Shown here piece by piece: positions 34,923 through 51,311 of a DNA stretch of 64,000 nt (within the stretch, counting starts at the first letter, position 1; every line of letters begins with the position of its first letter). This DNA is from Psychrobacter sp. P2G3 (GTDB taxonomy: Bacteria; Pseudomonadota; Gammaproteobacteria; Pseudomonadales; Moraxellaceae), in NCBI RefSeq assembly GCF_001593285.1, contig NZ_CP012529.1, positions 1,054,001 to 1,118,000 of the forward strand, given 5' to 3'. The notes beneath the pieces are model-generated. The model saw only the letters and a list, made by a program, of their open reading frames with translations, searched no databases and had not been told where the DNA came from. The translations under genes and the position numbers were made by a program.

Positions 34923-35834
34923 ATGATTAAAGGTCTAACCATAACCCCACCAGTTTTAGGTCGTATCAGTATTGGACGTGTCATTCAAAAAGATGGCAAG
35001 CGTTTGCCTGCTAAAGACGATCAATTCACTATCACCAGCCAAGTTCAAAATAAGGATGGCTGGATTAACCATCCACTCGATGCAAAGCTACGCGAAAAGA
35101 ATGACGGTAAGCTGAGACACATACCGGTACGCATGTTGTTTAACGATCCTGAGCTAAACCTGCGAGCTGAGTACACCTTGTTCGATAGACAAACCGGACG
35201 GCCACTATGCGTGGGTGACGGTGAGCAGTGTCAACGCCGTACAAACAATGGCGTGGAAACGTTGCTTTGCCCGTCACCTGATCGTTGCCCATTAGCGCAA
35301 GGCGGTGCTTGTAAGCCGTATGGCAGACTTTACGCAAATCTGAGTGAAGACGACGAGTTAGGCACGTTTATCTTTCGCACCACAGGCTTTAACAGTATTC
35401 GCACGCTTGCCGCACGGCTGAGCTACTTTGCTGCGGTATCAGGCAATAAGCTGTCCTGCTTACCACTGCAATTAACCCTAAGAGGCAAAAGCACCACGCA
35501 AAGCTATCGTACGCCGATTTACTTTGTGGATTTGACACTACGTGATGGGGTGACACTAAAGCAAGCAGTGCAAGATGCGCAGGCAATTGATGCGGAGCTT
35601 AGCGAACACGGCTTTGATCAAGCAGCGCTAGAAGAGGCTGCAAAACAGGGTTACGTCAATTCATCCTTTGAAATTGATAACGATGGTTTGTTAGACGTGG
35701 CTGAAGAGTTTTATCCCATGGAGACAGATGACGTTAGCAATAGTCAGCAGGGGAATTATCAGAACGGGTTAGCCACTCATAACGTGACTAGCATAGAGCA
35801 AGGGCTACGGCAAAGCGTGACGGCGGTGAGCTAA
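34923..35834 (+). CDS. Gp3-like protein (annotated elsewhere as recombination directionality factor or metal-binding protein)
   Basis: The 303-residue protein starts MIKGLTITPPVLGRISIG and has a middle section with six Cys or so: LCVGDGEQCQRR, LLCPSPDRCPLAQGGACKPYGRLY. This resembles a zinc site within a beta-rich domain and the Gp3-like/RDF family named after phage phiC31 gp3. IFRTTGFNSIRTLAARL follows. In other plasmids and ICEs this protein is next to YqaJ and DUF932 genes, as here. If it acts as a directionality factor, its partner would normally be a serine integrase, but the island has a tyrosine integrase, so a role in recombination as a DNA-binding protein is equally likely. The C-terminal 60 residues are acidic and weakly conserved in look. 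Confidence 0.7.
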   Translation: MIKGLTITPPVLGRISIGRVIQKDGKRLPAKDDQFTITSQVQNKDGWINHPLDAKLREKNDGKLRHIPVRMLFNDPELNLRAEYTLFDRQTGRPLCVGDGEQCQRRTNNGVETLLCPSPDRCPLAQGGACKPYGRLYANLSEDDELGTFIFRTTGFNSIRTLAARLSYFAAVSGNKLSCLPLQLTLRGKSTTQSYRTPIYFVDLTLRDGVTLKQAVQDAQAIDAELSEHGFDQAALEEAAKQGYVNSSFEIDNDGLLDVAEEFYPMETDDVSNSQQGNYQNGLATHNVTSIEQGLRQSVTAVS

Positions 35835-35875
35835 AGTAATTGAGGAAGATATGCGGCGTAAATTAGTTAGGTTGA

Positions 35876-35904
35876 AACAAGCGATTTTAGGTCGCTTGTT
35901 TTAT
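35876..35904 (+). terminator. Intrinsic terminator after the Gp3-like gene
   Basis: AAACAAGCGA / TCGCTTGTTT arms with loop TTTTAGG-like spacer and T-rich end. Confidence 0.82.
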
Positions 35905-36020
35905 TTCTTATCGGTTTATTTTTAGTGGCTTAATACCTAGGTTAAGTCTTACAATGTGCTAGTTCTTCATAACGGCATATTAAAAACAGATTATTACTGT
36001 TTAACGTAAGGATAGCTAAA

Positions 36021-36479
36021 ATGGATTTAGAAAAGACAATGGCATTAAGTAATTCAGTACAACTGTCTAAGAAAATATCTAAAAGAATTGCCAATCAGAC
36101 TGAACGTTATTTACAGAGCTTTGGTGAAGATACGGTAACCACAAAACCTCTTAAAAATGTATGGGATGATATTTGCTATAAGTTCCAAACAGAAGAATTT
36201 TGCGGCAAGGTTTACGAGTCCATGGTTGTAGAATATGTTGGTTCACTGGTCGATGCTTTAGAAGACTATGAATTTAATGCCCTCTACCTTCAAATTGAAA
36301 GCCTGCGTACGATCCTAGCTGATTCAGCTAAGAGTACGCCATCAGATATAGATGAACACAGTCTTATCAGCATGCGTTTTTTCAAAGATCGAGTTATTTT
36401 ATATCTCATTGAAGAGTATATTTATAAACGGGCTAAAGGCTACACAAACAAAAGGCTTAGGAAAGCTCTAAATAGTTAA
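36021..36479 (+). CDS. Unknown 152-residue island protein
   Basis: It is a helical, slightly basic protein with no signal or membrane segment and no recognised family. The N-terminal part is rich in Lys/Ser/Gln (LSKKISKRIANQTERYLQSF). The middle contains an acidic helix (VGSLVDALEDYEFNALYLQIESL) and the C-terminus is basic (YKRAKGYTNKRLRKALNS). AAGGA precedes the ATG. It stands between two terminators, about 180 bases before the alpA-like gene. A small accessory or regulatory role is possible, but nothing in the sequence shows it. Confidence 0.65.
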   Translation: MDLEKTMALSNSVQLSKKISKRIANQTERYLQSFGEDTVTTKPLKNVWDDICYKFQTEEFCGKVYESMVVEYVGSLVDALEDYEFNALYLQIESLRTILADSAKSTPSDIDEHSLISMRFFKDRVILYLIEEYIYKRAKGYTNKRLRKALNS

Positions 36480-36524
36480 GATAGTCGTGTATGTAACTTA
36501 TTATTAAAAGTATTTTTAACACAG

Positions 36525-36556
36525 AAAAAGGAGCTGATGATTCAGCTCCTTTTTAT
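36525..36556 (+). terminator. Intrinsic terminator after the 152-residue gene
   Basis: Perfect 13-base arms AAAAAGGAGCTGA (36525-36537) and complement (36542-36554) with a 4-base loop. Confidence 0.92.
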
Positions 36557-36600
36557 TACTCTATGCATAAGGTCTATCGGACGATATAAGTCTCATAAAA

Positions 36601-36644
36601 AAATACAGGACTCCCTGACTGTATGAGAACAGATGTTCCCATAC
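36601..36644 (+). promoter_or_regulatory. Structured 5' leader of the alpA-like gene
   Basis: AAATACAGGACT followed by arms GTATGAGAAC (36621-36630) and GTTCCCATAC (36635-36644), nine of ten pairs, about 18 bases before the ATG. It shares the TACxGGACT box and the TATGA stem with the leader at 31162-31204. Confidence 0.5.
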
Positions 36645-36662
36645 AATAATTCGGAGATAATC

Positions 36663-36914
36663 ATGGAAAATTCAAACGCAGCACAGCCAGTAATTGAGCA
36701 ATGTAATCACATACCACAGCTATTGAGTATTAAAGATGTTGGTAGCTATACTGGTCTTAGTCGTTCTACGATTTATGAGATGGTTAATGAAAATTCTGAT
36801 CGTTATGATCCAACATTCCCTAAGAAGGTACAACTGACACAGGTAAGGGTGGTGTGGGTAGCAAGCGAGATTGCAGAATGGATTAATACGAAGATTGCAG
36901 AACGTTCAGTATAG
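36663..36914 (+). CDS. AlpA family helix-turn-helix regulator (prophage CP4-57 type)
   Basis: Starting at ATG 36663 (CGGAG just upstream), the 83-residue protein has the AlpA/MerR-like winged helix: LLSIKDVGSYTGLSRSTIYEMVNE (in parts LLSIKDVGSYTGLSRSTIY) is the helix-turn-helix. FPKKVQLTQVRVVWVASEIAEWI is the wing and last helix with the characteristic W-x-x-x-EIxxWI end. AlpA of CP4-57 turns on the island's excision function; relatives control int/xis in P4-like elements. Here it lies upstream of a repeat-rich control region and the defence genes, so it might control either excision or those genes (inference). Confidence 0.92.
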   Translation: MENSNAAQPVIEQCNHIPQLLSIKDVGSYTGLSRSTIYEMVNENSDRYDPTFPKKVQLTQVRVVWVASEIAEWINTKIAERSV

Positions 36915-36924
36915 ATTTATCTGA

Positions 36925-36962
36925 CCGTCCTAACTTTAAAAGTAGGGCGGTTTATTTTTTTT
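36925..36962 (+). terminator. Intrinsic terminator after the alpA-like gene
   Basis: Arms CCGTCCTA (36925-36932) and TAGGGCGG (36943-36950), one G-U pair, followed by TTTATTTTTTTT. Confidence 0.85.
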
Positions 36963-37066
36963 GTATTATGAGAGGTTTCTTAATCTAATACACTAAGTAA
37001 TATACTTTAGGCAGAAGAAAAGGCCTCAGCCACTTTGTGTTTACAATCAAAGTTTTATCGCAATTA

Positions 37067-37212
37067 AAAGGCTATTTCATGCGCAAAATCTTGTTAGGGA
37101 AAAATTGTGTAGGGTGGTACTTGGCGTTCATAGAAATAGGCAAATAGTCTTTCGAATAAAAGACTATTTAAACAGGCTAAAAGACTATTTAAAGATTCTT
37201 TAAAGGCTATTT
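37067..37212. repeat. Array of AAARRCTATTT repeats, three spaced 21-22 bp
   Basis: Direct copies at 37067-37077 (AAAGGCTATTT), 37159-37169 and 37180-37190 (both AAAGACTATTT) and 37202-37212 (AAAGGCTATTT); an inverted copy at 37142-37152 (AAATAGTCTTT). The last three lie 21 and 22 bases apart, two turns of the helix. They fill part of the 638-base gene-free stretch 36963-37600 and resemble iterons or an operator array. Confidence 0.75.
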
Positions 37213-37492
37213 TTCACTATTAAACATATATAAAACAAGGGCTTAAGGGTCTCTCCAGAGAAATGATAAAAGTATTTATCTTGTTAATAATCATCTATCA
37301 CTATCTTGATCAAAAGCAGCCGCTAGTAGGGCGCTGTAAGGGGTCGCCTCATTCTCATGCATATAGATTTAATAGGATGACGTTGAATGGCTATATCTAA
37401 GCTTAGCAGGCTATCCGACAGATTACAGCTTAAACGTTTGGAAGTAGGGCAATATCAAGAATCGTGAGCTGTTAAATATGTCAGACAGAAGT

Positions 37493-37510
37493 ATATCCTT
37501 AGAAGGATAT
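37493..37510. promoter_or_regulatory. Palindromic operator-like site before the defence genes
   Basis: ATATCCTT, two bases (AG), AAGGATAT. The two-base centre is too short for a hairpin, so a dimeric DNA-binding protein is the likely reader. A TATAAT at 37543-37548 (no good -35) lies downstream, about 55 bases before the DUF262 gene. Confidence 0.5.
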
Positions 37511-37600
37511 TTCAAGCTCGTATGGTAGACTACTTCGAATAATATAATCACAAAACAATAATCATCATGTATAAGTTAATCTTTAATAGAGAGTTTACGA

Positions 37601-39298
37601 ATGAGCAAAAACCTTAGCGGTGCGGACTACCCTTTATCAAAAATATTTAGCTCAGATTTTGAATACGTTATTCCACCTTATCAAAGACCATATGCATGGA
37701 CGATAGATCAGGCATCCGAGTTATTTGAAGATTTACATAGTTTCTATCAATATGAACCTGATGAGGAATATTTTCTTGGTAGTATTGTTCTGATTAAGGA
37801 GGAAAATAAGCCTCATTCTGAAGTAATTGATGGTCAGCAAAGATTGACCACTTTAACAATCCTACTAGCTGTGCTATCAAATAAACTACAGGGTGATGAT
37901 AGGAAGGCACTACTGCAATACATACTAGAGCCAGGGAATAAATTTGAAGGATTAGAGAGTAAGCCACGATTGACTGTTCGCAGTCGAGATCGAGATTTTT
38001 TTGCATCTTACGTTCAAGGCCTAAAGTTTGATGAACTTTTCGCAATGGATGAAAAAGCGCTTGAGAATGAATCACGTCTAAATATCAAACGCAATAGTCA
38101 GCTTCTAGATAAGTACGTTTCAGAAAAGCTTGGTGATGATGTAGAGCAAATTGAGAGTTTTACAGCTTTCCTACTTCGAAAGTGTTATTTAGTAGCGGTA
38201 TCAACCCCTAATCAAAAATCAGCCTTTAGAATATTTTCAGTAATGAATAGCCGAGGGTTAGACTTGCAGCCAACTGATATCATTAAGGCCGATACGATTG
38301 GCATGGTTGAATTAGAGGCCCAAAGAGAAAAATATAATGAACGTTGGGAAGAGATGGAGGTCGAGCTTGGACGGAGTCGTTTCAATGATTTGTTTTCTTA
38401 TATTCGTATGATTCATGCTAAAGAAAAGGCAAAACGTTCGTTGCTAGAAGAGTTTAGAGAACACGTATTAAGTAAAGGTATTAGTCCTGAAGATCTAATT
38501 TCAGCAGTATTAGAGCCTTATGCAGAAGCATTGTTGATTGCAAAAAATAGTGATTATGTAGCGGTAGCCTATGCCGAAGAAGTTAACAGGTATTTAAAAT
38601 GGTTAAATAGAATTGATAACTCTGATTGGGTGCCAACAGCAATCGAATTTATAAAGAATAATAAAGCTAAGCCTGAGTACATGGCTTGGTTTTTTGAAAG
38701 ATTAGAGCGACTGGCAGCATTTATGCATATTTGTGCCTATAACATAAACCAACGCATCGAACGTTATAACAAGGTGCTTAGCGCACTTGAAAACAATCAT
38801 TCTCTTACTAATCCTATAAACGAGGTAGAATTAACAGATGATGAAAAGCATAAAATGATTAAGGTGCTTGATAGTGATATTTACGATCTAACATCAAGAA
38901 GAAGAAACTACTTAATATTGCGATTAGATGCATTTATATCAGATGGGGGAGCAACTTATGATCCTACTATCTTAACTATTGAGCACGTTTTACCCCAGAC
39001 AGTAGACAAGGAAAGTGAATGGGCCCAATGGTGGCCTGTAGCAGAAGAAAGAAAAATATGGGTACATAGATTAGCTAATTTAGTACCATTAAATAAGAGA
39101 CGCAATTCAAGTGCTAGAAACTTCGATTTTGATAAAAAGAAAAATGCTTACTTTTTAGGTCGAAAAGGAGTTTCTTCGTATGCACTGACTACACAAGTCA
39201 TTGGCTATGCTCAGTGGAAGCCAGAGGATTTGCCTAAACGTCAAATGGAGCTTATGGACATTCTAGCTGATAACTGGCGATTGAAGATCGACGCATAA
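37601..39298 (+). CDS. GmrSD-like DUF262/DUF1524 protein (type IV restriction-type nuclease)
   Basis: The 565-residue protein joins the two parts of GmrSD. The DUF262 domain (about 5-230) opens with YPLSKIFSSDFEYVIPPYQRPYAW. It holds EVIDGQQRLTTLTILLAVL near 77, the ParB-like NTP site with DGQQR, and later FRIFSVMNSRGLDLQPTDIIKA. The C-terminal DUF1524 nuclease domain has TIEHVLPQ near 460 and HRLANLVPLNKRRNSSARN near 490-505, an HNH-like His-Me motif. Known relatives use NTP to cut DNA with modified cytosine, or act as the nuclease in BREX (BrxU) and SspE systems. It is the first of four genes in line (36 bases before the SNF2 helicase), so probably part of one defence system. Confidence 0.9.
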   Translation: MSKNLSGADYPLSKIFSSDFEYVIPPYQRPYAWTIDQASELFEDLHSFYQYEPDEEYFLGSIVLIKEENKPHSEVIDGQQRLTTLTILLAVLSNKLQGDDRKALLQYILEPGNKFEGLESKPRLTVRSRDRDFFASYVQGLKFDELFAMDEKALENESRLNIKRNSQLLDKYVSEKLGDDVEQIESFTAFLLRKCYLVAVSTPNQKSAFRIFSVMNSRGLDLQPTDIIKADTIGMVELEAQREKYNERWEEMEVELGRSRFNDLFSYIRMIHAKEKAKRSLLEEFREHVLSKGISPEDLISAVLEPYAEALLIAKNSDYVAVAYAEEVNRYLKWLNRIDNSDWVPTAIEFIKNNKAKPEYMAWFFERLERLAAFMHICAYNINQRIERYNKVLSALENNHSLTNPINEVELTDDEKHKMIKVLDSDIYDLTSRRRNYLILRLDAFISDGGATYDPTILTIEHVLPQTVDKESEWAQWWPVAEERKIWVHRLANLVPLNKRRNSSARNFDFDKKKNAYFLGRKGVSSYALTTQVIGYAQWKPEDLPKRQMELMDILADNWRLKIDA

Positions 39299-39334
39299 AA
39301 ATTCTATGTTGCGACTAATAATAAGATTTGAATT

Positions 39335-42187
39335 ATGAATAAGGTAACCAACCACCAATTAAAGTATTTTGCTTGGGAAATTACTAAGCAGCGTAGTAGC
39401 TCCGACGACGCACGTATTGCGCAGTCGCTATTCGATGCTCAGGTTGACGTAAACCCACACCAGATTGAAGCGGCATTATTTGCGTTGAGTAATCCTTTAA
39501 GTCGAGGTGTTGTCTTAGCCGACGAAGTAGGTTTAGGTAAAACTATCGAAGCGGCTTTAGTGCTTTGCCAATACTGGGCAGAGTATAGAAGAAATTTATT
39601 AGTTATCTGCCCTGCGTCGTTACGTAAGCAATGGGCATTGGAATTACAAGATAAATTCAACCTACCTGTACAAGTACTAGACTCGTTTACTTGGAAGAAG
39701 TTACGTCAAGAAGGTGTCTACAATCCTTTTGAAAATAAAAAGATCACTGTTATATCCTATCCATTTGCAACCAGAATGGAGCATGAGCTGGCTAAAATAC
39801 CTTGGGATATGGTTGTAATTGATGAGGCGCATCGGCTGCGTAATGCCCATCGTCCCAGTAATAAAACAGGCAATAGCTTTAAAAAGTCTCTAGTTGCTCG
39901 TAATAAACTGCTACTGACAGCCACTCCACTACAAAACTCATTAATGGAGCTATATGGGCTTAGTACTATTATAGATGAGCATTTATTTGGTGACGATAAG
40001 GCGTTCCGCCGTCAATATGTTAACGAAGATAACTTGCCAGCCCTTAAGCGCCGATTGGATCAGTTTATCCATCGTACGTTACGTAAGGATGTTTTGGAGT
40101 ATATTCCATATACAAGACGCCATGCTTTAACGGTACCATTTACACCTAGCGATGTTGAACAGCGTTTGTATGATCAAATTAATAGCTACTTACAAAGAGA
40201 GTTTAGCTATGCCTTTCCTGTACAGCAGCGCCACCTAATCACCATTGTTTTACGTAAGCTATTGGCGTCTTCTACTTCTGCTGTTATAGCAACATTAGAA
40301 TCGATTCGTAACCGTCTCCAAGCTCTTTTAGACAATCAAACCATTGATGCAGAATGGATAGAGCATTTTATTGCTGATGAAGATATAGATGAAGAGCTTA
40401 TCGAAGAAGACGAGGACGAGTATAGCGAATATGAAACTCGTGGCGTTGATGCAGATTTACTTAAATCTGAAATTAAAGAGGTCGATCAGTATCTTGCTTT
40501 AGCTCATGAAATTGATGAAGACCGTAAGTCTTATGCGCTATTAACAGCATTGGAGCGTGGGTTTGCCCGTATGTTTGAAATGGGGGCACCAAAGAAGGCC
40601 GTGATATTCACTGAGTCACGCCGTACTCAAACCTATCTTGTAGAGTTTTTGCAGTCTCATGGTTTCAATGGCAAGGTAGTCGCTTTTAATGGTAGTAATA
40701 ATAGCCCAGTCAATACTGGCATCTATCACAGATGGTTAGCTAAACACGTAGGTAGCGACAGAGTTACTGGCTCATCGTCAATAGATAGACGTACAGCGCT
40801 CATTGATTATTTCAGAGATGACGTTGAAATTATGATTGCTACCGAAGCCGCTGCTGAGGGTGTCAACTTACAATTCTGCTCCTTAGTGGTTAACTATGAT
40901 TTACCTTGGAATCCACAAAGAGTCGAGCAGCGTATTGGTCGCTGTCATCGCTACGGCCAAGCTTTTGATGTGGTTGTAGTCAACTTTGTCAACGAGCGTA
41001 ATGCAGCTGATCAAAGAGTGATGGAGCTACTGAGTGAAAAGTTTGATCTGTTTGAAGGTGTGTTTGGCGCTTCGAACGAAATACTAGGATCGATAGAAAG
41101 TGGTATTGATTTCGAGAAACGTATTTTAGAGATTTACGATAAATGCCGTACAAATCAGGAGATTCAAGAAAGCTTTAATAAACTACAGTCTGAGCTTGAG
41201 GCTCAAATCAATCAAAAAATGCTACAAACTCGTGACCTTCTACTAAAGCATTTTGATGCAGATATTCATGAGCTGCTCAAGATTCATAAGCAACGAGCTG
41301 AAGAGCAGCTTGATCGTATTAGTAATTTCTTTTGGGCGATTAGCCGAGCACTACTAGCGCCCTATGCTGACTTCCATCCTAATCAGTTAAATTTTACGCT
41401 GCATAAGTCGCCTACAGTAGATATAAAGGTTGGTAGCTATCAGCTGATCAGAAAGGGCGAATCTGTACCTGATAATACCTACATATATCGTCTAACGCAT
41501 CCACTCGGTGAGTATGTACTAAATAAGGCAAAGTACCTACCTACTGAGACTGCGCAGATAAACTTTGATTACAGCAATTATGATAAAAAAGTATCCAGCC
41601 TTGAGCCATTAGTAGGGCAGTCAGGATGGTTGTCGCTTAGTTTATTATCACTAGACTCGTTTGCAAAAGAAGAGCATTTAATATTGACAGGAATGACTGA
41701 TAATAATACTGTCTTAGATGCTGATATCTGTGAGCGTATTTTACGTTTAGAAGGGGTAGTGGTTGAAGATAAAATAACGAAAGCTATTCCGAAACTATTC
41801 ACTGATACAATCGAGTTTCAGCATAAAAACAAACTGAGTGAGGCGCTTGATAGTAATCAGGTGTTTTTCAAACGTGAGCAAGAAAAGATTGAAAGTTGGG
41901 CAGATGACCATATGGCATCAGCTGAGTCAGCGCTTGATGACATTAAGCTCAAAATACGTAGCCTAAAGCGAGAAGCTCGCCAAGCCAGTACTATCGATGA
42001 GCAAAAGCAAAAGCAAGAGCAGCTCAAAAAGGCAGAACGTGAACAGCGTAAACTTCGTCAAAATATCTTTGATGTGACTGATGAGATTGAGGAAAGGCGC
42101 GATACATTAATTGAAAACTTAGAACAGATGATGCATAAAAAAAGCCAGTTTGAAACGCTTTATCATATTCGTTGGCACGTAAAATGA
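39335..42187 (+). CDS. SNF2-family (RapA/HepA-like) helicase of the defence locus
   Basis: The 950-residue protein has both RecA-like lobes. Lobe 1: VLADEVGLGKTIEAALVL (Walker A, Lys near 68), LLVICPASLRKQW, VVIDEAHRLRN (DEAH, near 162) and LLLTATPLQNSLMELYGL. Lobe 2: AVIFTESRRTQTYLVEFL near 435, and motif VI in LPWNPQRVEQRIGRCHRYGQ near 530. An acidic insert lies near 345-370 (DEDIDEELIEEDEDEYSEYE in parts). The C-terminal 350 residues include a long coiled coil (860-940, KLKIRSLKREARQ to KKAEREQRKLRQN). SNF2 motors move on double-stranded DNA. DISARM DrmD is of this class, but here no drmA, drmB or drmC follows. It overlaps no neighbour; a new promoter-like site and hairpins follow it. Confidence 0.93.
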   Translation: MNKVTNHQLKYFAWEITKQRSSSDDARIAQSLFDAQVDVNPHQIEAALFALSNPLSRGVVLADEVGLGKTIEAALVLCQYWAEYRRNLLVICPASLRKQWALELQDKFNLPVQVLDSFTWKKLRQEGVYNPFENKKITVISYPFATRMEHELAKIPWDMVVIDEAHRLRNAHRPSNKTGNSFKKSLVARNKLLLTATPLQNSLMELYGLSTIIDEHLFGDDKAFRRQYVNEDNLPALKRRLDQFIHRTLRKDVLEYIPYTRRHALTVPFTPSDVEQRLYDQINSYLQREFSYAFPVQQRHLITIVLRKLLASSTSAVIATLESIRNRLQALLDNQTIDAEWIEHFIADEDIDEELIEEDEDEYSEYETRGVDADLLKSEIKEVDQYLALAHEIDEDRKSYALLTALERGFARMFEMGAPKKAVIFTESRRTQTYLVEFLQSHGFNGKVVAFNGSNNSPVNTGIYHRWLAKHVGSDRVTGSSSIDRRTALIDYFRDDVEIMIATEAAAEGVNLQFCSLVVNYDLPWNPQRVEQRIGRCHRYGQAFDVVVVNFVNERNAADQRVMELLSEKFDLFEGVFGASNEILGSIESGIDFEKRILEIYDKCRTNQEIQESFNKLQSELEAQINQKMLQTRDLLLKHFDADIHELLKIHKQRAEEQLDRISNFFWAISRALLAPYADFHPNQLNFTLHKSPTVDIKVGSYQLIRKGESVPDNTYIYRLTHPLGEYVLNKAKYLPTETAQINFDYSNYDKKVSSLEPLVGQSGWLSLSLLSLDSFAKEEHLILTGMTDNNTVLDADICERILRLEGVVVEDKITKAIPKLFTDTIEFQHKNKLSEALDSNQVFFKREQEKIESWADDHMASAESALDDIKLKIRSLKREARQASTIDEQKQKQEQLKKAEREQRKLRQNIFDVTDEIEERRDTLIENLEQMMHKKSQFETLYHIRWHVK

Positions 42188-42240
42188 GTTGATAAATTTT
42201 ATAATGGAGCAAGCGTTTTTTAGCTATTGAAGCACTGATC

Positions 42241-42249
42241 TGATATAAT
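42241..42249 (+). promoter_or_regulatory. Extended -10 promoter-like site for mod-res
   Basis: TGATATAAT fits the extended -10 form TGnTATAAT exactly. No good -35 is present at 17 bases, which extended -10 promoters can lack. It would start a leader of about 115 bases before the methyltransferase ATG. Confidence 0.5.
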
Positions 42250-42274
42250 GTTTGGCTGATTTTTTTCTATTTTA

Positions 42275-42339
42275 GAGCTAGGTTTGGTTTCATTAATTGA
42301 GACTAGCCTAGCTCGTTTTGTCATAAGCCTATGACAAAA
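42275..42339 (+). promoter_or_regulatory. Two tandem hairpins in the mod leader
   Basis: First hairpin: GAGCTAGG (42275-42282) with CCTAGCTC (42307-42314), then GTTTTG, terminator-like. Second: TTTTGTCATA (42316-42325), loop AGCC, TATGACAAAA (42330-42339), ending about 20 bases before the ribosome site of mod. Either may attenuate readthrough from the helicase gene or control mod translation. Confidence 0.55.
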
Positions 42340-42372
42340 TGCTGCTATAAAAACCCTGTCGAAGGACTCACC

Positions 42373-45300
42373 ATGAGCCAATATGCCAATCTTAATCAAA
42401 AACTAAAAAATATCTTTCAAATTGATCGTCCTGATCTAGATTTTGGTATTTATCGCATTTTGAACGCGCGTCGTAATGAAATTAGCGACTATCTAGATAA
42501 TCGTCTCAGAGCCAAAGTAGAGACGTATCTGACGGACGCCAAAAGCGATGTTCATGACAGCCAGCTTGAGAGTATCACTAATCAAATTAAGGACGAGTTT
42601 GGTAAGCGTGCGTTCGATGAGGCAGGCAAATTAGTCAATGAAACCGCTATCGAAAGCTCACTTGGACAGCAGTACCAAGAGCTACGCGATCATGCTGATA
42701 GCAGCTTTGATCAAGCGCAAGTGTTTAGCCATTTGTACACCTTTTTTAGTCGCTATTATGATGAGGGCGACTTTATCAGTCAGCGCCGTTATAAAGGCGA
42801 CACCTATGCCATTCCTTATTCTGGCGAAGAGGTGATGCTGCATTGGGCGAATAAAGACCAGTACTATACCAAGTCAGGTGAGATGTTTAGCAACTACCGT
42901 ATTCGCTTCAATTCGATAGGTGAGTCAGACAAATCCGTCTTATTCCGTTTGTTATCTGCTGATACGGCGAAGGATAATCAAAAAGACAATGATAAAAACC
43001 GTCGCTTCGTTATTCTCTCTAAGCCAAAGACGGTAACTCGTACCGATGAAGAAGGCGAGGAATATGAAGAAACCGTACATCCTATAGAGCTTAATGACGC
43101 TGGCGATGAGCTGACGGTATGGTTTGAATACGCGGTAATGGACAGCAAGGCCAGACAAGATAAGCTCAATACAGAAGCTCATGACGATATATTGGCAAAT
43201 ACCACAGTCAGTACAGCATGGGCAACCTTACTCAAGCATCCAGCACCAACCGAAAAACAGGCTGATCGTGACTTACTGCGTAAGCATCTAGATACTTATA
43301 CACAAAAAAACACAGCTGATTATTTCATCCATAAAGACTTAGGTAAATTCTTAAATAATGAGCTGGACTTCTATATCAAAAACGAAGTCATGCATTTAGA
43401 CGATGTGGTTAATAGCTCAGGCTTTATAGAGATAGAGCGCCAGCTTGCGCTGATTAAATGCTTACGCAAAATTGGCCGTGAGTTAATTGACTTTTTAGCG
43501 TCGCTAGAAAACTTTCAAAAGAAGCTGTGGCTTAAAAAGAAGTTTGTGGTGTCGAGCCATTATTGTATTACGCTTGATCGTGTCGATGAAGCGCTGTATA
43601 GCGAAATTGCTGATAATGAGGCTCAGTGGCAGCAGTGGGAGAGCTTAGGGTTTAAAGTAACTGATGATAGCCTACCGCATTGGGGTAGCAGCCAGTATTT
43701 AAAAGCACATCCGTATCTCATGGTAGATACCAGCTTGTTTGAGTTGGGCTTTAAAGCTAAGCTATTAAATAGCATTGATGATTTGGATGAGCAGACGGAT
43801 GGTCTCGTAATCAATGGTGATAATTTTCAGGCATTGAATTTAATGCAAGAGAAATACCAAGAAAAGATTAATTGTGTCTATATTGACCCTCCTTACAATA
43901 CAGGTAGTGATACGGAAAACAATACTTTTTTGTATAAAGACAGCTATAAACATTCATCTTGGGCAACGATGCTTGAAAGCCGCTTGATTTTAAGTCGTGA
44001 GTTGATTAATGATTTCGGGGGTATTTGGGTTAGTACTGATGATGGTGAGTATGCTCGTCTAAACTTAATTTTAGAAGGTATGTTTGGGGCCGATAACTTT
44101 ATTGCAGATGTAATCTGGAAAAGTCGTTCGTCTGTTTCAAGTGATACTATAATTTCTGGCTCGATTAACCATACAACTTTTTATTCAAAAAATAAGAGCT
44201 ATCTCAATACTCACAAAGGTGATTTTAGACTCCCTGAATCTTTGGACGGTTTTATCAATCCAGATAATGACTCAAGAGGTCCATGGAAGCTAGATCCAAT
44301 GGATGCTCCTGATATTCGTGAAAACTTGAGTTATGCTATAACTAACCCTGATACTGAAGAAGTTTTTTATCCTCCTGAAGGAAGACATTGGCGTTTTGAA
44401 GAAAAAGATGTCATTGATTTACTAAAGGAAGGCACAATCATATTCGGCAAGTCAGGTAAATCAAGACCTGCGTTTAAGCGCTTTTATAGCGATGCTCAAG
44501 GTAAAGGAAGAACAACAACTACGCTGTGGGATGATGTGAAAACAACTAGCCATGCAACTAAAGGCTTATACGATTTATTTAGCAATATATCTAAAGAAAC
44601 ATTAAACAGAATAAAGCCAAAACCAATTGAGCTAGTAAAAAGAATATTGGTACTGTATAGCAAAGTTCAAAAAGACACAATCAACTTAGATTACTTTGCA
44701 GGAAGTGGAACAACTGCACACGCAGCAATAAATTTAAATCGTGAAGATGGTGGTAATCGTAAATATATTCTAGTTGAGCAAGGTGAGTATTTTGATACTG
44801 TACTCAAGCCACGTATTCAAAAAGTAGTCTATAGCGAAGGTTGGAAAGGCGGTAAGCCTTTATTGCCTAAAAGTAAGAGTAGCGGAAGTACAGAAAACCC
44901 TTATAAAGGCATCAGTCATTGTCTAAAAGTCGTCAAGCTTGAAAGCTATGAAGACACTTTAAATAACCTGGAGCTTAACCGTAGTCCCGCTCAGAACGAT
45001 TTGTTTGGTGATTTAACACCTGCTCAGCAAGACGACTATCTCATGCATTATATGCTCGATATCGAGAGTAAGGAATCACTACTAAACGTTGCTGATTTTG
45101 CTAATCCATTTGATTATCAGCTAAAGATAACCGCCGATAGCGCTGGTGCTTATACGGTACAAAACGTCGATCTTATCGATACTTTTAACTATCTCATAGG
45201 GTTAAAGGTTAGAAATATAGACTATCAGCTAGATCGAGGATTTGTACAGGTAGATGGGCACTTGCGCACAGGTGAGCTAGTTACCGTGTTTTGGCGTGAC

Positions 45301-45501
45301 TGTGAACAGATTGGTTATGATGAGCTGGATAAGACGCTTCAAAAGCTGCGTATCAATGCCTTAGATAGCGAGTATCAGCAGATATATGTCAATGGTGATC
45401 ATAACATCAACACCAAGCTTACCAGTACTGATGGTAATGAGAGACAACTAAAAGTCCGCTCGATAGAGCAGGTATTCCTTGAGCGCATGTTTGCAGAGTA
45501 A
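42373..45501 (+). CDS. Long beta-class N6-adenine DNA methyltransferase (type III Mod-like)
   Basis: The start at ATG 42373 (GAAGGAC upstream) gives 1042 residues; a further in-frame ATG at 42331 lies inside the leader hairpin. Motif IV is DPPYNTG near 505. Motif I is DYFAGSGTTAHAAINLN near 775, and ILVEQGEYF follows. The order IV then I defines the beta class. The 270 residues between them include the probable target-recognition part. Classical Mod subunits are about 600-680 residues; here about 490 extra N-terminal residues (helical, FQIDRPDLDFGIYRILNARR at the start) and about 200 at the C-terminus are added. It should protect host DNA by adenine methylation. It is three bases before res, so the two are translated together. 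Confidence 0.92.
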   Translation: MSQYANLNQKLKNIFQIDRPDLDFGIYRILNARRNEISDYLDNRLRAKVETYLTDAKSDVHDSQLESITNQIKDEFGKRAFDEAGKLVNETAIESSLGQQYQELRDHADSSFDQAQVFSHLYTFFSRYYDEGDFISQRRYKGDTYAIPYSGEEVMLHWANKDQYYTKSGEMFSNYRIRFNSIGESDKSVLFRLLSADTAKDNQKDNDKNRRFVILSKPKTVTRTDEEGEEYEETVHPIELNDAGDELTVWFEYAVMDSKARQDKLNTEAHDDILANTTVSTAWATLLKHPAPTEKQADRDLLRKHLDTYTQKNTADYFIHKDLGKFLNNELDFYIKNEVMHLDDVVNSSGFIEIERQLALIKCLRKIGRELIDFLASLENFQKKLWLKKKFVVSSHYCITLDRVDEALYSEIADNEAQWQQWESLGFKVTDDSLPHWGSSQYLKAHPYLMVDTSLFELGFKAKLLNSIDDLDEQTDGLVINGDNFQALNLMQEKYQEKINCVYIDPPYNTGSDTENNTFLYKDSYKHSSWATMLESRLILSRELINDFGGIWVSTDDGEYARLNLILEGMFGADNFIADVIWKSRSSVSSDTIISGSINHTTFYSKNKSYLNTHKGDFRLPESLDGFINPDNDSRGPWKLDPMDAPDIRENLSYAITNPDTEEVFYPPEGRHWRFEEKDVIDLLKEGTIIFGKSGKSRPAFKRFYSDAQGKGRTTTTLWDDVKTTSHATKGLYDLFSNISKETLNRIKPKPIELVKRILVLYSKVQKDTINLDYFAGSGTTAHAAINLNREDGGNRKYILVEQGEYFDTVLKPRIQKVVYSEGWKGGKPLLPKSKSSGSTENPYKGISHCLKVVKLESYEDTLNNLELNRSPAQNDLFGDLTPAQQDDYLMHYMLDIESKESLLNVADFANPFDYQLKITADSAGAYTVQNVDLIDTFNYLIGLKVRNIDYQLDRGFVQVDGHLRTGELVTVFWRDCEQIGYDELDKTLQKLRINALDSEYQQIYVNGDHNINTKLTSTDGNERQLKVRSIEQVFLERMFAE

Positions 45502-45504
45502 GTT

Positions 45505-48500
45505 ATGGCTAATCCCAGTAAAAAGAAAAGCAAAAAGATAAACTTTCATGAGCAGCTGGTACTTACGCAGTGGCTATGGTCAAAGTTCAATCCTGACAAT
45601 ATCAAAGGTATGCATACGCTATTGGATTTGCCTGTTCATGAAGGTGTTGAACACGAAGGTGAGGACGCAGGTCAAACCAAGTTTTTCACTGAGCTTACCA
45701 GAGACTTAGTCGGTAAGCAGACTTTAGATATCGATACCTTAAGACGCTATGATAGAAATATCGTGCGTTACTGGCTACAGATTAGTGAGGCTCGCAATGA
45801 GCAAGCTAATAGTGAGTTGAATCTAAAATACTTTCAGTATTTGTCACTGCTGTTTACGGAGTATTACTTAGATCAATACTTCAATAATTCTGAGCAGATG
45901 CTAGAGGAGCTAAACGCTACCGTAGTTGCCTATAACGAGGACAAAAGCGATAGCGAGATATTACAACCGTATGTAGCCAATGACTTAAACAAAGTTGCGT
46001 ACTGGAGTGCCACAGGTAGCGGTAAGACGCTATTGATGCATATTAATATTTTGCAGTATCAGTACTACACTGAGCATGCCAGCCACAATGATAAAATAGA
46101 GCAGATAATTCTACTGACTCCTAATGATGGGCTTAGTAATCAGCACCTTGAAGAGTTCAAGATGTCTGGTATCGAAGCTATGATATTCCAAAAAAACAAA
46201 TCCCGTGACCAGTTTTTAAAATATGTGCAAATTATTGATATCCATAAGCTGGCTGAGAGGGATGGTGATAAGACGATAGCGGTAGAGTCACTAGAAGGTC
46301 AGAACCTTGTACTAATCGATGAAGGTCATCGTGGCACAAGTAGTGCTGGTGTATGGATGAGCTATCGTGACACGCTGACAAAAGATGGCTTTAGCTTTGA
46401 ATATTCAGCGACCTTTGGTCAAGCGATTAATAAATCTAACAACGTCATCAAGCAAGAAGAAGAAGAGATAAAAACCAAAGCAAAAATGCACTTTGGTACT
46501 AAGGCGTTAACTAAACTAGACGATACTCAGTTGAAGGCTCTAAGTTTAGATGAGCTGGAAAAGCAAAAAGCAAGGCGCGAAGCCTTGCGTGAAGTCTATG
46601 CAAAAAACATCTTGTTTGACTACTCGTACAAGTATTTTTATGATGATGGCTATGGTAAAGAAGTCAATATTCTCAATATGAAAAAAGGTGAGACGCAGGA
46701 TAATCAGCAGCTATATCTAACCGCCTGCTTATTGGCTTTTTACCAGCAGCAGCACCTTTATCAAAATAACGTCGGACGTCTTAAGCAGTTCAAAGTTGAA
46801 AACCCCCTTTGGGTATTTGTCGGTAATAAAGTAAATGATGATGATTCAGATATTTTGACCATCATCAAATTTTTAGCTGACTTTTTAGACAGTCGTCATA
46901 AAGCAGAAACTATCAACTGGATTCATGACTTTATTACCAATAAGTCACGTTTGGTCGATAGCAAAGGTAACAATATTTTTGTTAATCGTTTTGCTCCATT
47001 GCATGGTAGAGACGCTGAAGCTATTTATCAAGATATACTCAGCCAGTTCTTTAATGCAGGGAGTAACCAGCGTCTAAACGTCATACGGATCACTCAAAAC
47101 ACAGGTGAGCTACGCCTACAAATTGGTGAGAATACACCGTTTGGTGTGATAAACGTAGGCGATGAAAAAGGCTTGTTTGATCACTGTGAAAAGCTAAGTG
47201 ATAGCCATTATCTTAATACGCGTACAGATGAATTTACCCCGACGCTGTTTGATACCATCAACGACGATAATAGCAAAACCAATCTGTTAATTGGCTCACG
47301 TAAATTTACCGAAGGGTGGAGTAGTTGGCGCGTCTCGACTATGGGTCTGTTGAACATGGGTTCTGGTGAAGGCTCACAAATCATTCAATTGTTCGGACGA
47401 GGTGTACGTTTAAAAGGTGAGGGCTTCTCACTTAAACGAACGCCGCACAATATTTATAGTAAAGCTGAATATAAAGATCTGTATCTAGATTTGCTACAAA
47501 CCATTAATATCTTTGGCTTACATGCTGACTATATGGAAAAATTCCGTGATTATCTAAACGATGAAGGGATCGTCCTTAACCAAGATTTAGTCACTTTAGA
47601 TTTCAATACCAATCGTATAGCAGCGCCACATAGACTCAAGACTTTGACGCTTAAAGATGGTTACAAAGATAATCAGCCAAATGGCTTCAAGGCACAGGTT
47701 AAGCTGTCGCTATTTGAAATTCCTGATAAGTATCAGGGGAAAATTAAAAAGCCGTTTGTGATTTTAGACTTATACCCACGACTCCAAGCCTATCATACCG
47801 ATAAGCGCAAGCGTAATAATGACTTAAAAGACAAGCGTCAAGAGCATGAAATATCGCCTGATATCATGCCGTTCTTTGATTTTGACAGTTTATATTTACA
47901 ATTACAGCAGTATAAGATGCAACGTGGCTATACCAATATACGTCTTGGTATCGACGAGCTTAGAGCGTTCTGCTGTAAGCCAATTAAGAATACCCATGAT
48001 GACTGGTATAGGCTATTGGTCGATAGCGAAAAGCTGACGAAAGATGTAGAGGGTATTCGCTTTCAGCAAAGCGTCTTATTAGAGCTGCTACAAGCGTACA
48101 TGGACAGATTTTACAAAACCATGAAAAACGCATACGAAGGTCAGTACTATGAAGTGACAGAGTTTAATGTCGGTGACGATGATCTGCCTATTCACATGTG
48201 CGACAAATATGTATTTACATCAAAAGAAGGGTTTAATGGTGAGGCAGAAGAGTACTTTAAACGCCTTACCAAGTTACAAGATATAGTCAATGATGGAAAG
48301 CTAGAGAAGACAGTCAACTGGCAGGATGGTAGCTTACGTACAGTCGTATTTGACAAGCATCTGTATTATCCATTGTTCAGCAAAAATGATGATAGCTTGC
48401 CATTTACTTGGTCGCCTTCAGTATTTGATTATGACAGTAAGGGTGAGAGTAGCGAAGTCAAATTCGTCGATGATCTACAGCACTATATCAATTCTGATAA

Positions 48501-48906
48501 ACAGATTGATGCGCTTAAAGATTACCATATCTATTTACTTCGTAATCCTGATAACCGTTACAAAGGATTAGGTTTTGCACTAGCAGGTAATTTTTATCCA
48601 GACTTTTTATTGTGGTTAGTACACAAAGAGACGGGTGAGCAGTACCTGACCTTGATTGATCCTAAGGGTATCCGCAACATGAATACTGATGATGCCAAAA
48701 TTAATCTATATAAAGAAATAAAAACCCTTGAGAGCCGCTTAGAAGATAAGCTGATACTAAATAGCTTTATTTTGACCACGACGCCAATGAAAGAGTTGAT
48801 AAATAACTCATTGAGCGAAGATGAGCTTAAAGAGCGAAATGTGTTGTTTATGGTAGGTAATCAAACCGCTTATTTAAATGATATGTTTGAGGGGATTTTG
48901 AGCTGA
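45505..48906 (+). CDS. Type III Res-like helicase-endonuclease
   Basis: The 1133-residue protein has a superfamily 2 motor. YWSATGSGKTLLM near 168 is Walker A, LVLIDEGHRGTSS near 271 is motif II (DEGH), and EYSATFGQ is motif III. FTEGWSSWRVSTMGLLNMG and IIQLFGRGVRLKGEG near 615-640 correspond to motifs V-VI. Close to the C-terminus, FYPDFLLWL (about 1032) and LIDPKGIRN (about 1052) form a PD-x(about 18)-DxK nuclease core. Type III Res proteins translocate on DNA with Mod and cut when two complexes meet. Start ATG 45505 is immediately behind mod. The long 180-residue N-terminus and central part are unlike EcoP1 Res, so a variant family is likely. Confidence 0.92.
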   Translation: MANPSKKKSKKINFHEQLVLTQWLWSKFNPDNIKGMHTLLDLPVHEGVEHEGEDAGQTKFFTELTRDLVGKQTLDIDTLRRYDRNIVRYWLQISEARNEQANSELNLKYFQYLSLLFTEYYLDQYFNNSEQMLEELNATVVAYNEDKSDSEILQPYVANDLNKVAYWSATGSGKTLLMHINILQYQYYTEHASHNDKIEQIILLTPNDGLSNQHLEEFKMSGIEAMIFQKNKSRDQFLKYVQIIDIHKLAERDGDKTIAVESLEGQNLVLIDEGHRGTSSAGVWMSYRDTLTKDGFSFEYSATFGQAINKSNNVIKQEEEEIKTKAKMHFGTKALTKLDDTQLKALSLDELEKQKARREALREVYAKNILFDYSYKYFYDDGYGKEVNILNMKKGETQDNQQLYLTACLLAFYQQQHLYQNNVGRLKQFKVENPLWVFVGNKVNDDDSDILTIIKFLADFLDSRHKAETINWIHDFITNKSRLVDSKGNNIFVNRFAPLHGRDAEAIYQDILSQFFNAGSNQRLNVIRITQNTGELRLQIGENTPFGVINVGDEKGLFDHCEKLSDSHYLNTRTDEFTPTLFDTINDDNSKTNLLIGSRKFTEGWSSWRVSTMGLLNMGSGEGSQIIQLFGRGVRLKGEGFSLKRTPHNIYSKAEYKDLYLDLLQTINIFGLHADYMEKFRDYLNDEGIVLNQDLVTLDFNTNRIAAPHRLKTLTLKDGYKDNQPNGFKAQVKLSLFEIPDKYQGKIKKPFVILDLYPRLQAYHTDKRKRNNDLKDKRQEHEISPDIMPFFDFDSLYLQLQQYKMQRGYTNIRLGIDELRAFCCKPIKNTHDDWYRLLVDSEKLTKDVEGIRFQQSVLLELLQAYMDRFYKTMKNAYEGQYYEVTEFNVGDDDLPIHMCDKYVFTSKEGFNGEAEEYFKRLTKLQDIVNDGKLEKTVNWQDGSLRTVVFDKHLYYPLFSKNDDSLPFTWSPSVFDYDSKGESSEVKFVDDLQHYINSDKQIDALKDYHIYLLRNPDNRYKGLGFALAGNFYPDFLLWLVHKETGEQYLTLIDPKGIRNMNTDDAKINLYKEIKTLESRLEDKLILNSFILTTTPMKELINNSLSEDELKERNVLFMVGNQTAYLNDMFEGILS

Positions 48907-49032: not shown

Positions 49033-49368
49033 TTAAGATTTAAGAATATCTTGATCTGCAAAGCCCAAATCTTTCAAAAAAGAAGTAGCTTCATCATCAT
49101 TCCTAAAAATCATTGCTTTAGACAAGTCGGAAGAATGACATAAAAAGTGTGGCTTACCTTCATATAGTGGCTCTCCGTTAGAACCGTTAAATAAAATAGT
49201 GACACCATCTCCGGCTGTAAGTAAAGTAGCTTGTTGAATTATACCAGCTTCATATCTTATTCTAGCTAAAGATGATATTACAGAATCGCCACCATTCATG
49301 CCGCCGAATTTAATCTTACCTGCCCCAGTTTTATTAGCTGAAGACTTTTTGTTCAAATTATCTATCAT
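49033..49368 (-). CDS. Unknown 111-residue island protein
   Basis: No family recognised. The N-terminal 30 residues are Lys/Asn/Gly-rich and likely disordered (NKKSSANKTGAGKIKFGG). The rest reads as an alpha/beta domain: ARIRYEAGIIQQATLLTAGDGVTILFNG (in parts) and EGKPHFLCHSSDLSKAMIF, ending in an acidic helix. It has no signal and no membrane segment. AAGAGAA stands before the ATG. It is on the minus strand between the defence locus and the integrase, 219 bases downstream of int. It might be a small modulator of excision or of the neighbouring system, but the sequence does not say. Confidence 0.6.
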   Translation of the reverse strand: MIDNLNKKSSANKTGAGKIKFGGMNGGDSVISSLARIRYEAGIIQQATLLTAGDGVTILFNGSNGEPLYEGKPHFLCHSSDLSKAMIFRNDDEATSFLKDLGFADQDILKS

Positions 49369-49587: not shown

Positions 49588-50949
49588 TCACATTACATCA
49601 GCTTGAAGTATCCTTAAAACCTTATCCTCTCCCAGCTGGTCAATCAACGCTTGCAGATGGGTAGTAGAATCAGACTTGTTTTGGGCATCTGCTCTAAATT
49701 CTGCCGTATCTCTACCTTCACGCAAAGCATCTAAATAGTCCGCCCACTTCTGCATCATATTACTACGATCATCAATGTATTCAAATCGACCATAGGCGGT
49801 TCCATTAGGATCTTTCGTCGTATGACCCAATGCCATCTCTACAAGCACAAGTGGATACTTTAACTGCTCTTGTAGGATGGTCTTCGCTGTCGCTCTAAAG
49901 CCATGAGCACAATGTATATCTTTATAGCCTAAATCCTTTAACCGCTTATTCGCTGTCGCATCTGATATGATCTGATGCTTTTTTGCCGTTTCGCTAAAAA
50001 AGACATATTCGGTGTGACCATTAATCTTTTGCTGCTTACGTAATATTGCTACCGCTTGACGCGGTAGGGGAACGACCATGTCTTTGACCATGTTTACCTT
50101 GCCTTGCCCCTTCAATGGCTTTAATCGCCATCTGCCAGTTTCTAGGTCTAGATCAGCCCAGCGCATACGTCTTAAATCACCATTGCGAACAAACAGAAGC
50201 GCTAATAGCCTAAGGGAATTTATGGTGTTTGGGTCACCTTCTATTGTCTCGATAGCTTTAAGTAATTTAGCCAAGTCCTTCGGTTTAGTAACCGCAGGAC
50301 GATGACCGTAACTTGACTTAGCCAACTGGCTCTTAATGAGCGCCGCAGGATCACTCGTACAGAAACCTCGTGCCCCAGCATAGACAAACACATCACTGGC
50401 AATGCCAGCACAGCGTTCAGCCTTGTCTGTGGGCTTACCATCCTTGTTTAATGACTTAGCTTGGATGTCTAATAGCACTTCAAGCATTTTAGGTGAGGTG
50501 ATATCGCTGATTGGCTCGTCACCAATATATTTGCATATAAGATCAAGACGACCTTTCTTACGAATGAGGGTGTTACTTTTCTGAGTCTGATCTAAGCTAT
50601 CAAAATACTCCCAAGCAAAATGATTAAAAGAGTTTTTAGTTTTACTAATAATAATTTTCTTTATTTCTTCACGATGAAATTTTGGGTCAATACCTTTGCT
50701 TAACAGGTCTTCATATTCACGCCAAACCTCACACGCACGTGCATACGAGATACTTGGATATATACCAATGGATATAATACTTTGCTTAGAATTTGAAGGA
50801 GGGTAGTAGCGGTACATCCATGACTTAGTCTCAGTAGGACGTACCATTAAGAATAGTTTGGGATGATTTTTGACAGCAACGAAGTACTTCTTATCTTCAG
50901 GCTTATGGCTGCTGATGCTTCTGTCTGAACTGATCGCTTTTCTTTCCAT
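49588..50949 (-). CDS. int: P4-type tyrosine integrase
   Basis: This is a 453-residue site-specific recombinase that inserts the island in tRNA-Leu. The N-terminal arm-binding region (about 10-90) contains KYFVAVKNHPKLFLMVRPTETKSWMYRY, as in DUF4102 integrases (read in parts). The SAM-like core-binding domain follows. The catalytic domain has the first Arg in FVRNGDLRRMRWADLD near 254, HGFRATAKTIL (HxxR) near 350, GHTTKDPNG (His) near 378 and the Tyr of AYGRFEYIDDR near 390. The first Arg box reads RNGDLRRM instead of the more usual RxGEL. It lies 160 bases from the right attachment site, facing away from the tRNA, as in most such islands. Confidence 0.95.
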   Translation of the reverse strand: MERKAISSDRSISSHKPEDKKYFVAVKNHPKLFLMVRPTETKSWMYRYYPPSNSKQSIISIGIYPSISYARACEVWREYEDLLSKGIDPKFHREEIKKIIISKTKNSFNHFAWEYFDSLDQTQKSNTLIRKKGRLDLICKYIGDEPISDITSPKMLEVLLDIQAKSLNKDGKPTDKAERCAGIASDVFVYAGARGFCTSDPAALIKSQLAKSSYGHRPAVTKPKDLAKLLKAIETIEGDPNTINSLRLLALLFVRNGDLRRMRWADLDLETGRWRLKPLKGQGKVNMVKDMVVPLPRQAVAILRKQQKINGHTEYVFFSETAKKHQIISDATANKRLKDLGYKDIHCAHGFRATAKTILQEQLKYPLVLVEMALGHTTKDPNGTAYGRFEYIDDRSNMMQKWADYLDALREGRDTAEFRADAQNKSDSTTHLQALIDQLGEDKVLRILQADVM

Positions 50950-51006: not shown

Positions 51007-51056
51007 TGCATGGATTAGGATAGATTCATAGGACAGTATAGAACGCCAGATACAAC

Positions 51057-51080
51057 AAAGCCCCTGATATCAGGGGCTTT
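51057..51080 (-). terminator. Island-borne terminator now serving tRNA-Leu
   Basis: A 24-base perfect palindrome, AAAGCCCCTGAT and its complement, about 34 bases beyond the tRNA 3' end on the minus strand. The tail is CTTTGTTG, a modest T run. Confidence 0.6.
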
Positions 51081-51108
51081 AGCTGTTCTATAAGATAGTA
51101 TAGGACTA

Positions 51109-51130
51109 TGTAATGGTACCCGGAGCCGGA
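51109..51130. repeat. Right attachment site (attR)
   Basis: A 22-base direct repeat of 28993-29014, overlapping the last 17 bases of tRNA-Leu. The tRNA remains whole on this side. Confidence 0.92.
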
Positions 51131-51200: not shown

Positions 51201-51311
51201 AAAACTTGTAATATCTATTCAGTAAGCTTTCTACTTCTTAGATAAGTGGTCGCATTATAAACGGTTGTACTAATAATGCAAGCCAAAATTAACATAAAGT
51301 TAATAAATAAT

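Follow-up and report, generated by a model that had tools for sequence, protein, structure and literature searches.

Type III Mod-Res enzymes slide with the help of ATP and then cleave unmodified DNA; the DNA cleaved by GmrSD enzymes is modified. Genes resembling both kinds lie in line at positions 37601–48906 of the DNA analysed here, a stretch of 64,000 nucleotides (hereafter, the window) from the 3.37 Mb genome of Psychrobacter sp. P2G3 (contig NZ_CP012529.1, positions 1054001–1118000). The closest described relatives of the type III part come from Murray et al. 2021 (PMC8259958), where the passages on N4-methylcytosine (m4C) type III restriction-modification (R-M) systems describe Eco86II and BspHIV, with an extra superfamily 2 (SF2) helicase-like ATPase gene 5′ of mod, and place such an ATPase close to mod-res in >500 genomes. 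For the GmrSD part, precedents are RloF, a GmrSD-type protein inside type I loci (PMC4619093, in the section on it), and BrxU, which inside bacteriophage exclusion (BREX) systems gives complementary protection, so that a GmrSD-type enzyme is there combined with a modification-based system (PMC8565348, in the part consulted); the domains of the GmrSD family are covered, in part, by the review PMC10952713.

The locus contains four intact open reading frames (ORFs) with ATG starts, all on the + strand and collinear, encoding proteins of 565 (DUF262), 950 (SNF2), 1056 (Mod) and 1133 (Res) amino acids and separated, in order, by 36, 143 and 3 bp. One set of Pfam domains was found per ORF, respectively GmrSD_N with GmrSD_C, SNF2-rel_dom with Helicase_C, N6_N4_Mtase, and ResIII, and the best PADLOC models (Orf5, 539 bits; DrmD, 691; MTase_III, 963; REase_III, 1108) scored far above chance. 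The initial annotation, made from the letters of the DNA, had described four large same-strand genes with short gaps; its coordinates were exact, and the domains and motifs that it gave for all four genes were borne out by Pfam, PADLOC and the motif positions. It had also proposed that the four genes form one machine. Our analysis indicates instead, with a probability of about 0.86, that the locus represents two defence modules joined in one mobile island: a GmrSD-like nuclease gene (module A) and an SNF2-Mod-Res unit (module B).

Module B has the arrangement of the Eco86II-type systems, that is, an SNF2 ATPase gene immediately 5′ of mod, followed by res. The same gene order was found in E. 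coli NCTC86 (locus L142), and the proteins are homologous over their full length, with identities of 54% for SNF2 (963 columns), 43% for Mod and 49% for Res. The window gene for the helicase-like ATPase (39335–42187, +; SNF2 family, RapA/DrmD-related) lies directly 5′ of mod, across the 143-bp gap, and on Pfam domains, similarity to the NCTC86 protein and linkage counts it is the probable Eco86II-type third gene. NCTC86, F9792 and B4103-1 carry the same SNF2 gene, each 98.8% identical to the E. coli XH990 query, and Table 4 of PMC8259958 assigns the predicted GAGCC systems EcoF9792I and EcoB4103II to the last two strains. The same paper, in its account of the strains, gives a single putative type III system for five of six, all but Acinetobacter species H; from the strain, the gene order and this statement we infer that L142 is Eco86II. 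Judged by its sequence, SNF2-Mod-Res is thus a putative three-gene type III R-M unit of the Eco86II kind, and the statement that the locus is not a classical R-M system gives way, since this three-gene arrangement was already described in the 2021 paper. The window differs from Eco86II in the recognition part of Mod, and it adds a GmrSD-like gene 36 bp upstream. As a separate observation, in E. coli XH990 and NCTC86 (L137, L142) the trio is followed by an opposite-strand gene annotated as a phosphorothioated-DNA-binding restriction endonuclease, also type IV-like.

The association of the SNF2 gene with mod-res was evaluated in its relatives. The SNF2 protein carries the motifs GLGKT (residue 66), DEAH (163) and QRIGR (532), and 109 relatives were pooled: the best 80 of at least 559 confirmed in a contig search, 10 found in a set of 348 family genomes, and 19 places spread over 18 genomes of a 398-genome phylum set. 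That contig search was queried with a 20-row alignment which contained four plasmid loci; mod-res of this type had already been seen at three of these. Removal of 8 loci under 400 bits and of 4 duplicate records left 97, of which 76 had 5 kb or more of sequence on the downstream side. In 64 of these 76 loci a type III-like Mod lies in the same orientation and no more than 8 kb downstream of SNF2, and in 3 it lies upstream, which gives 67/76, from many phyla; as a rough yardstick, obtained with a different detector and summed over the matches listed, PF01555 was found at 103 places in 100 genomes of the phylum, about one per genome. The Res partner belonged to class c3, that of the window, in 20 loci, to c2 in 35 and to c7 in 8, and ResIII was found in one representative each of c2 and c7. 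In the reverse search, Res of the window class was present in 6 of the 398 phylum genomes. Four of these carry SNF2 on the same contig, the fifth (G399, locus L134) retains, immediately before mod, an SNF2 remnant of 109 amino acids (44%), and in the sixth (G509) the contig starts within mod. These counts indicate that the predicted SNF2 motor and the type III mod-res pair belong together, and to this extent the idea of a common machine was upheld. A decayed locus with a split SNF2 and a short Res piece was seen in genome G209 (L099).

The Mod and Res proteins show the features expected of a type III pair. The mod gene (42331–45501, +) encodes a putative beta-class amino-methyltransferase with a long N-terminal region, assigned as type III Mod by PADLOC, by its similarity to the NCTC86 Mod and by its relatives in PDB; the order of its motifs, DPPYN at residue 519 (motif IV) before FAGSGTT at 789 (S-adenosylmethionine motif I), is that of the beta class. 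By sequence, its PDB relatives are the type III Mods 6k0w, 4zcf and 7dsu, with the best stretches within residues 475–819, and type III Mods were also the top fold matches of a predicted model of middling confidence (predicted local distance difference test, pLDDT, 72; predicted template modelling score, pTM, 0.60). The comparison with the Mod of the same-genus genome G307, in bins of 40 residues, gave identities of 62–97% up to residue 520, of 15–45% over 521–800 and of 68–88% beyond 800. The divergent stretch starts at motif IV, extends slightly beyond motif I and comprises the catalytic core and target recognition; residues 521–800 therefore appear to have been replaced between close relatives, as expected for exchanged target specificity in a working sequence-specific system. 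The res gene (45505–48906, +), directly 3′ of mod, encodes an SF2 motor (GSGKT at residue 171, DEGH at 272) followed by a C-terminal nuclease recognised by motif only (PD at 1032–1033, DPK at 1052–1054); its assignment as a probable type III Res comes from PADLOC, its identity to the NCTC86 Res and conserved columns. In an alignment of 20 Res proteins, P1032 and D1033 did not vary; position 1052 was occupied by D (15 proteins) or E (5) and position 1054 by K (14) or H (6), which shows that some members of the family lack the nuclease lysine. No PDB sequence match was found for Res, and its fold model (pLDDT 74, pTM 0.42) gave weak matches to SF2 motors and left the nuclease part unresolved.

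Module A is the DUF262/DUF1524 gene (37601–39298, +). On Pfam, PADLOC, motifs and PDB relatives it encodes a putative single-chain type IV nuclease of the GmrSD/BrxU kind. GmrSD_N scored 141 bits and GmrSD_C 91 bits, the second PADLOC model was HEC-06 (211 bits), and the relatives in PDB were 9jfl and SspE. The GmrSD motifs DGQQR and IEHVLPQ are found at residues 77 and 460, and D77, G78, Q79, Q80, R81, E461 and H462 were invariant in 11 sequences; domains and motifs together thus place the protein in the GmrSD family. With GmrSD, Eco94GmrSD, BrxU and RloF it shares the single chain of DUF262 and DUF1524, the DGQQR motif, the HNH-like C-terminus and a habitual placement in R-M or BREX loci (PMC4619093 and PMC8565348, in the parts consulted). 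It differs from the GmrSD/BrxU enzymes in sitting 5′ of a type III trio and in its best PADLOC models, Orf5 and HEC-06.

The surroundings of 12 DUF262 relatives were inspected, 4 in genomes and 8 on plasmids, the latter out of 1178 plasmid records with a match, and SNF2-Mod-Res of the window type adjoined none of them (0/12). On five plasmids (L108–L111, L113) no annotated R-M gene adjoined the relative. On plasmid L112 it adjoins type I hsdMSR, on L114 the helicase/DUF1156/DUF499 genes of a Hma-like system lie about 2.5 kb away, on L011 it stands within a different type III-like operon, and in genome L106 it is placed after two Mod-like ORFs. These contexts suggest that the DUF262 gene is a separate module. 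The L011 copy (14001–15684, Acinetobacter gerneri), the closest plasmid gene among those inspected (64–69%), is broken, being covered by two alignment pieces with stops and no annotated coding sequence.

To locate the border between the modules, the stretches of three same-genus genomes (G307, G269 and G313) were compared with the window at DNA level. G307, which has the trio and no DUF262 match, showed homology over 39331–48902 in three pieces; in contrast, G269, which has the DUF262 gene and the same left island flank, was homologous over 30970–39289 (89.6%) and gave no SNF2 match. The joint is thus placed in the 36 bp at 39299–39334, since homology ends at 39289 in one genome and starts at 39331 in the other. 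In a census of 348 genomes of the family, SNF2 was present in 11 (E <= 1e-100) and the DUF262 subfamily in 5 (E <= 1e-60), and both occurred only in the genome of the window. Conversely, DUF262 proteins were found in 3 of the 76 SNF2 loci, with 22–24% identity to that of the window.

These data bear directly on the proposal that SNF2 feeds DNA to both the type III and the GmrSD-like nuclease, the four genes forming one machine in which a single self-marking signal is read and two nucleases destroy non-self DNA. The common strand and the 36-bp joint, in which no terminator-like site was found on the + strand, are in line with it, as are two loci (L050, L124) in which SNF2 has another DUF262 protein as its direct neighbour. 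Against it stand the clean break of homology at the joint in two same-genus genomes and the rarity of the combination: the two genes together in 1/348 family genomes, DUF262 proteins in 3/76 SNF2 loci and the trio beside 0/12 DUF262 relatives. The linkage of all four genes across diverse genomes, which the initial annotation had named as the support for a single system, is therefore not observed; homologues lying mostly apart, the outcome that it had set beforehand as counting against the idea, were found for DUF262 and not for SNF2 in the neighbourhood counts. On this linkage evidence we rejected the single four-gene machine and regard it as very improbable. The joint without a terminator-like site does suggest that the two modules may share transcription.

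Several observations weigh against the division into two modules as we propose it. No Mod was found in 9 of the 76 SNF2 loci, one of which (L077) holds an ORF of a Mod cluster below threshold, and a haloarchaeal plasmid stretch (L013) has mod-res of the window class with no SNF2 detected, which counts against the SNF2 linkage. According to the passages of PMC8259958 on the enzyme, the extra ATPase of Eco86II is dispensable for methylation and was undetected in the active fraction of the enzyme, which leaves a motor role in cleavage hypothetical. DUF262 proteins stand directly beside SNF2 in L050 (24%) and in L124 (25%, a short contig), and 3′ of Res in L018 and L133, and L050 pairs SNF2 with DUF262 with no Mod detected; such proteins have therefore been recruited repeatedly, and a functional link may exist. 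Finally, the G269 contig stops about 230 bp beyond DUF262 and that of G307 starts about 1.4 kb before SNF2, which puts further neighbours out of view.

A relation of the locus to BREX or to the defence island system associated with R-M (DISARM) was also considered, with the SNF2 protein as the DISARM protein DrmD. The window SNF2 belongs to the same broad family of motors as DrmD of class 1 DISARM, BrxHII of BREX and RapA (BREX-related SNF2 helicases are surveyed in PMC12839542, of which a part was used), and it matched NCBIfam DrmD_b with 697 bits, PADLOC DrmD with 691 and BrxHI/HII with 238. It nevertheless scored below both NCBI DrmD cut-offs (697 vs 950 bits; 287 vs 610 bits) and is not a DrmD equivalog by this measure, which takes away the likeness to BREX and DISARM suggested at first. 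The absence of pglZ, brxC, drmB and drmC, stated in the initial annotation, agrees with PADLOC, where none of these models was among the matches listed for the four proteins (the best 25 of 34 for DUF262, 25 of 48 for SNF2 and 25 of 31 for Mod) or for nine other island proteins. Those nine proteins gave no drmA match either, and the DrmA match of SNF2 itself (147 bits) is read as the shared helicase domain. The usual neighbours of this SNF2 are, moreover, type III mod-res genes. Membership in DISARM or BREX was rejected on the sub-cut-off DrmD scores and the lack of listed partner-gene matches, and a derivation of the locus from either system appears barely credible. ARMADA, as far as it is described in the portion of PMC12458937 consulted, resembles the window in that one defence operon combines a methyltransferase with an SNF2 helicase of the BrxHII/RapA type; it has a PglX-like methylase and the YprA helicase, whereas the window has a type III Mod-Res.

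The partners of SNF2 have been exchanged during its evolution. A tree was built with 66 SNF2 proteins, namely those of at least 800 amino acids from loci with at least 5 kb downstream and one Res class, plus the window and three plasmid loci. On this quick tree, made without bootstraps and with one row (L080) on a long branch, the Res class changes 10 times, where the minimum possible is 2 and the mean after shuffling is 26.0, and none of 200 shuffles gave a number as low. The association is therefore conserved while the adjoining pair is exchanged; one example is L017 (c7) beside L082 (c3), with a Shimodaira–Hasegawa-like approximate likelihood ratio test (SH-aLRT) value of 99. Genes are also inserted. 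Among 62 loci that share the window's order of SNF2, Mod and Res, same-strand ORFs of at least 150 amino acids, called by a simple script so that some may be spurious, occurred between SNF2 and Res in 36 (in the SNF2-Mod interval in 31 and in the Mod-Res interval in 12). The clusters of these ORFs, named from one Pfam-scanned representative each, were AIPR (12 loci), RhuM (5), SMC-like AAA (4), AAA_21 (3), Schlafen/AlbA (3) and DUF4276 (2); 26 further ORFs fell outside the named clusters, 7 in four unscanned clusters and 19 others. SbcD/SbcC-like genes lie 3′ of Res in L051, L059 and L063. Annotated inserts include AAA with DUF4276 in Aeromonas, AAA with an S8 peptidase in E. coli and, also in E. 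coli, Abi with AIPR, with the helix-turn-helix (HTH) gene mads1 in front; a figure legend in PMC2292703 terms AIPR common in R-M operons. We found no paper devoted, by title or abstract, to extra genes in such loci, in a search with subscription journals mostly outside its coverage. Partner exchange and accessory genes around a conserved SNF2 ATPase are the remaining, less described novelty of these systems.

These findings raise the question of whether SNF2 serves as a platform with interchangeable mod-res pairs and effectors, into which the DUF262 gene would be functionally plugged although it is not conserved. The 10 changes of Res class on the SNF2 tree, the inserted genes, AIPR above all (12/62), and the L050 locus, with SNF2 and DUF262 and no Mod, favour this explanation. 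On the other side, the DUF262 gene of the window lies outside the SNF2-Res span, its subfamily occurs elsewhere either with no adjoining R-M genes or beside type I, Hma-like or other type III-like systems, 26 of the 62 loci have no extra gene, and the tree has the weaknesses already given. We therefore consider it unlikely that the window DUF262 is tied to SNF2 in this manner. A broader form of the idea, which we put forward tentatively as a possibility still on the doubtful side, would make SNF2 the invariable hub of a modular and widespread immune system: mod-res would be exchanged, the slots up to Res would be filled by AIPR, Schlafen/AlbA, SMC-like ATPases, AAA with DUF4276 or RhuM, and SbcCD-like or GmrSD-type nucleases would stand at the edges, all providing back-up effectors for when restriction fails. 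If this were true, the window would be a case with a modification-dependent nuclease as the plugged-in back-up.

Returning to the two-module organisation, its probable mode of action can be outlined by analogy with the known families. Mod would methylate one base of a short asymmetric site, and the Mod-Res complex would find unmethylated sites in incoming DNA, slide with ATP and cut when two complexes meet. The SNF2 ATPase would be a dedicated partner, our best guess being a motor on double-stranded DNA that removes or reshapes obstacles for the restriction complex or sets it going again. The enzyme of module A would hydrolyse nucleoside triphosphates and cut DNA with modified bases, and would therefore act on phages that are protected from the type III enzyme by their base modifications; together, the modules would cover unmodified (type III) and modified (GmrSD) phages. 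Nothing in the analysis points to a mutual need of the two modules. What seemed a new composite machine thus resolves into a published three-gene type III kind and a mobile type IV nuclease, with the joint located to 36 bp. The part that the SNF2 ATPase plays in type III systems, a question raised in 2021, remains and is testable: no later paper answering it was found in the literature, where only the 2021 paper names Eco86II. The exchange of mod-res and the inserted genes hint that SNF2 matters to restriction or to back-up, though the ATPase is described, in the relevant part of that paper, as dispensable for Eco86II methylation.

The four defence genes are bracketed by an AlpA-type regulator (36633–36914, +; Pfam Phage_AlpA, 57 bits) and a tyrosine integrase (49588–50949, −; Pfam Phage_integrase and Arm-DNA-bind_3), beside a tRNA-Leu gene (51114–51200, −). 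A putative right attachment (att) repeat of 22 bp (51109–51130) overlaps the 3′ end of this tRNA and has an exact copy at 28993–29014, the putative left repeat. In G287, a genome of the same genus, the match to the left flank is followed after 194 bp by a match to 51007–51437, which contains tRNA-Leu, and the site there is therefore empty of the island. From the att repeat at the tRNA 3′ end and the empty G287 site, we conclude that the locus sits in a predicted integrated tRNA-Leu island of about 22 kb. Since L148 and L150 have sequence similar to 51007–51108 next to att copies belonging to other islands, and L143 has it next to tRNA-Leu, the true right boundary of the island could be closer to 51007. 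tRNA-Leu was found within two of the eight same-genus stretches examined (L143 and L149), in L149 about 1.5 kb from the left flank.

In E. coli APEC E16002 (L138:11808–12008), a small HTH gene overlapping the SNF2 start is annotated as mads1 of the methylation-associated defence system, and small HTH genes also lie 5′ of SNF2 on Klebsiella, Salmonella and Aeromonas plasmids. On the Salmonella plasmid L009, an IS256 transposase stands between an intact SNF2 and an Abi gene with a shorter Mod-Res pair.

The backbone of the island (29015–36479) comprises a 543-amino-acid gene, YagK/YfjJ-like and DUF932 genes, a YqaJ/RecE-like exonuclease gene, a gene for a Gp3-like recombination directionality factor (RDF) and a 152-amino-acid gene, and the YagK/YfjJ-like, DUF932, YqaJ/RecE-like and Gp3-like genes are plasmid- or satellite-like. 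The ORFs at 36021–36479 (+; 152 amino acids) and 49033–49368 (−; 111 amino acids) gave no family match in Pfam, NCBIfam, PADLOC or PHROGs. The 543-amino-acid ORF (29175–30806, −), which had no match in Pfam, PADLOC or PHROGs, lies just inside the left att repeat and is a candidate cargo gene of the island.

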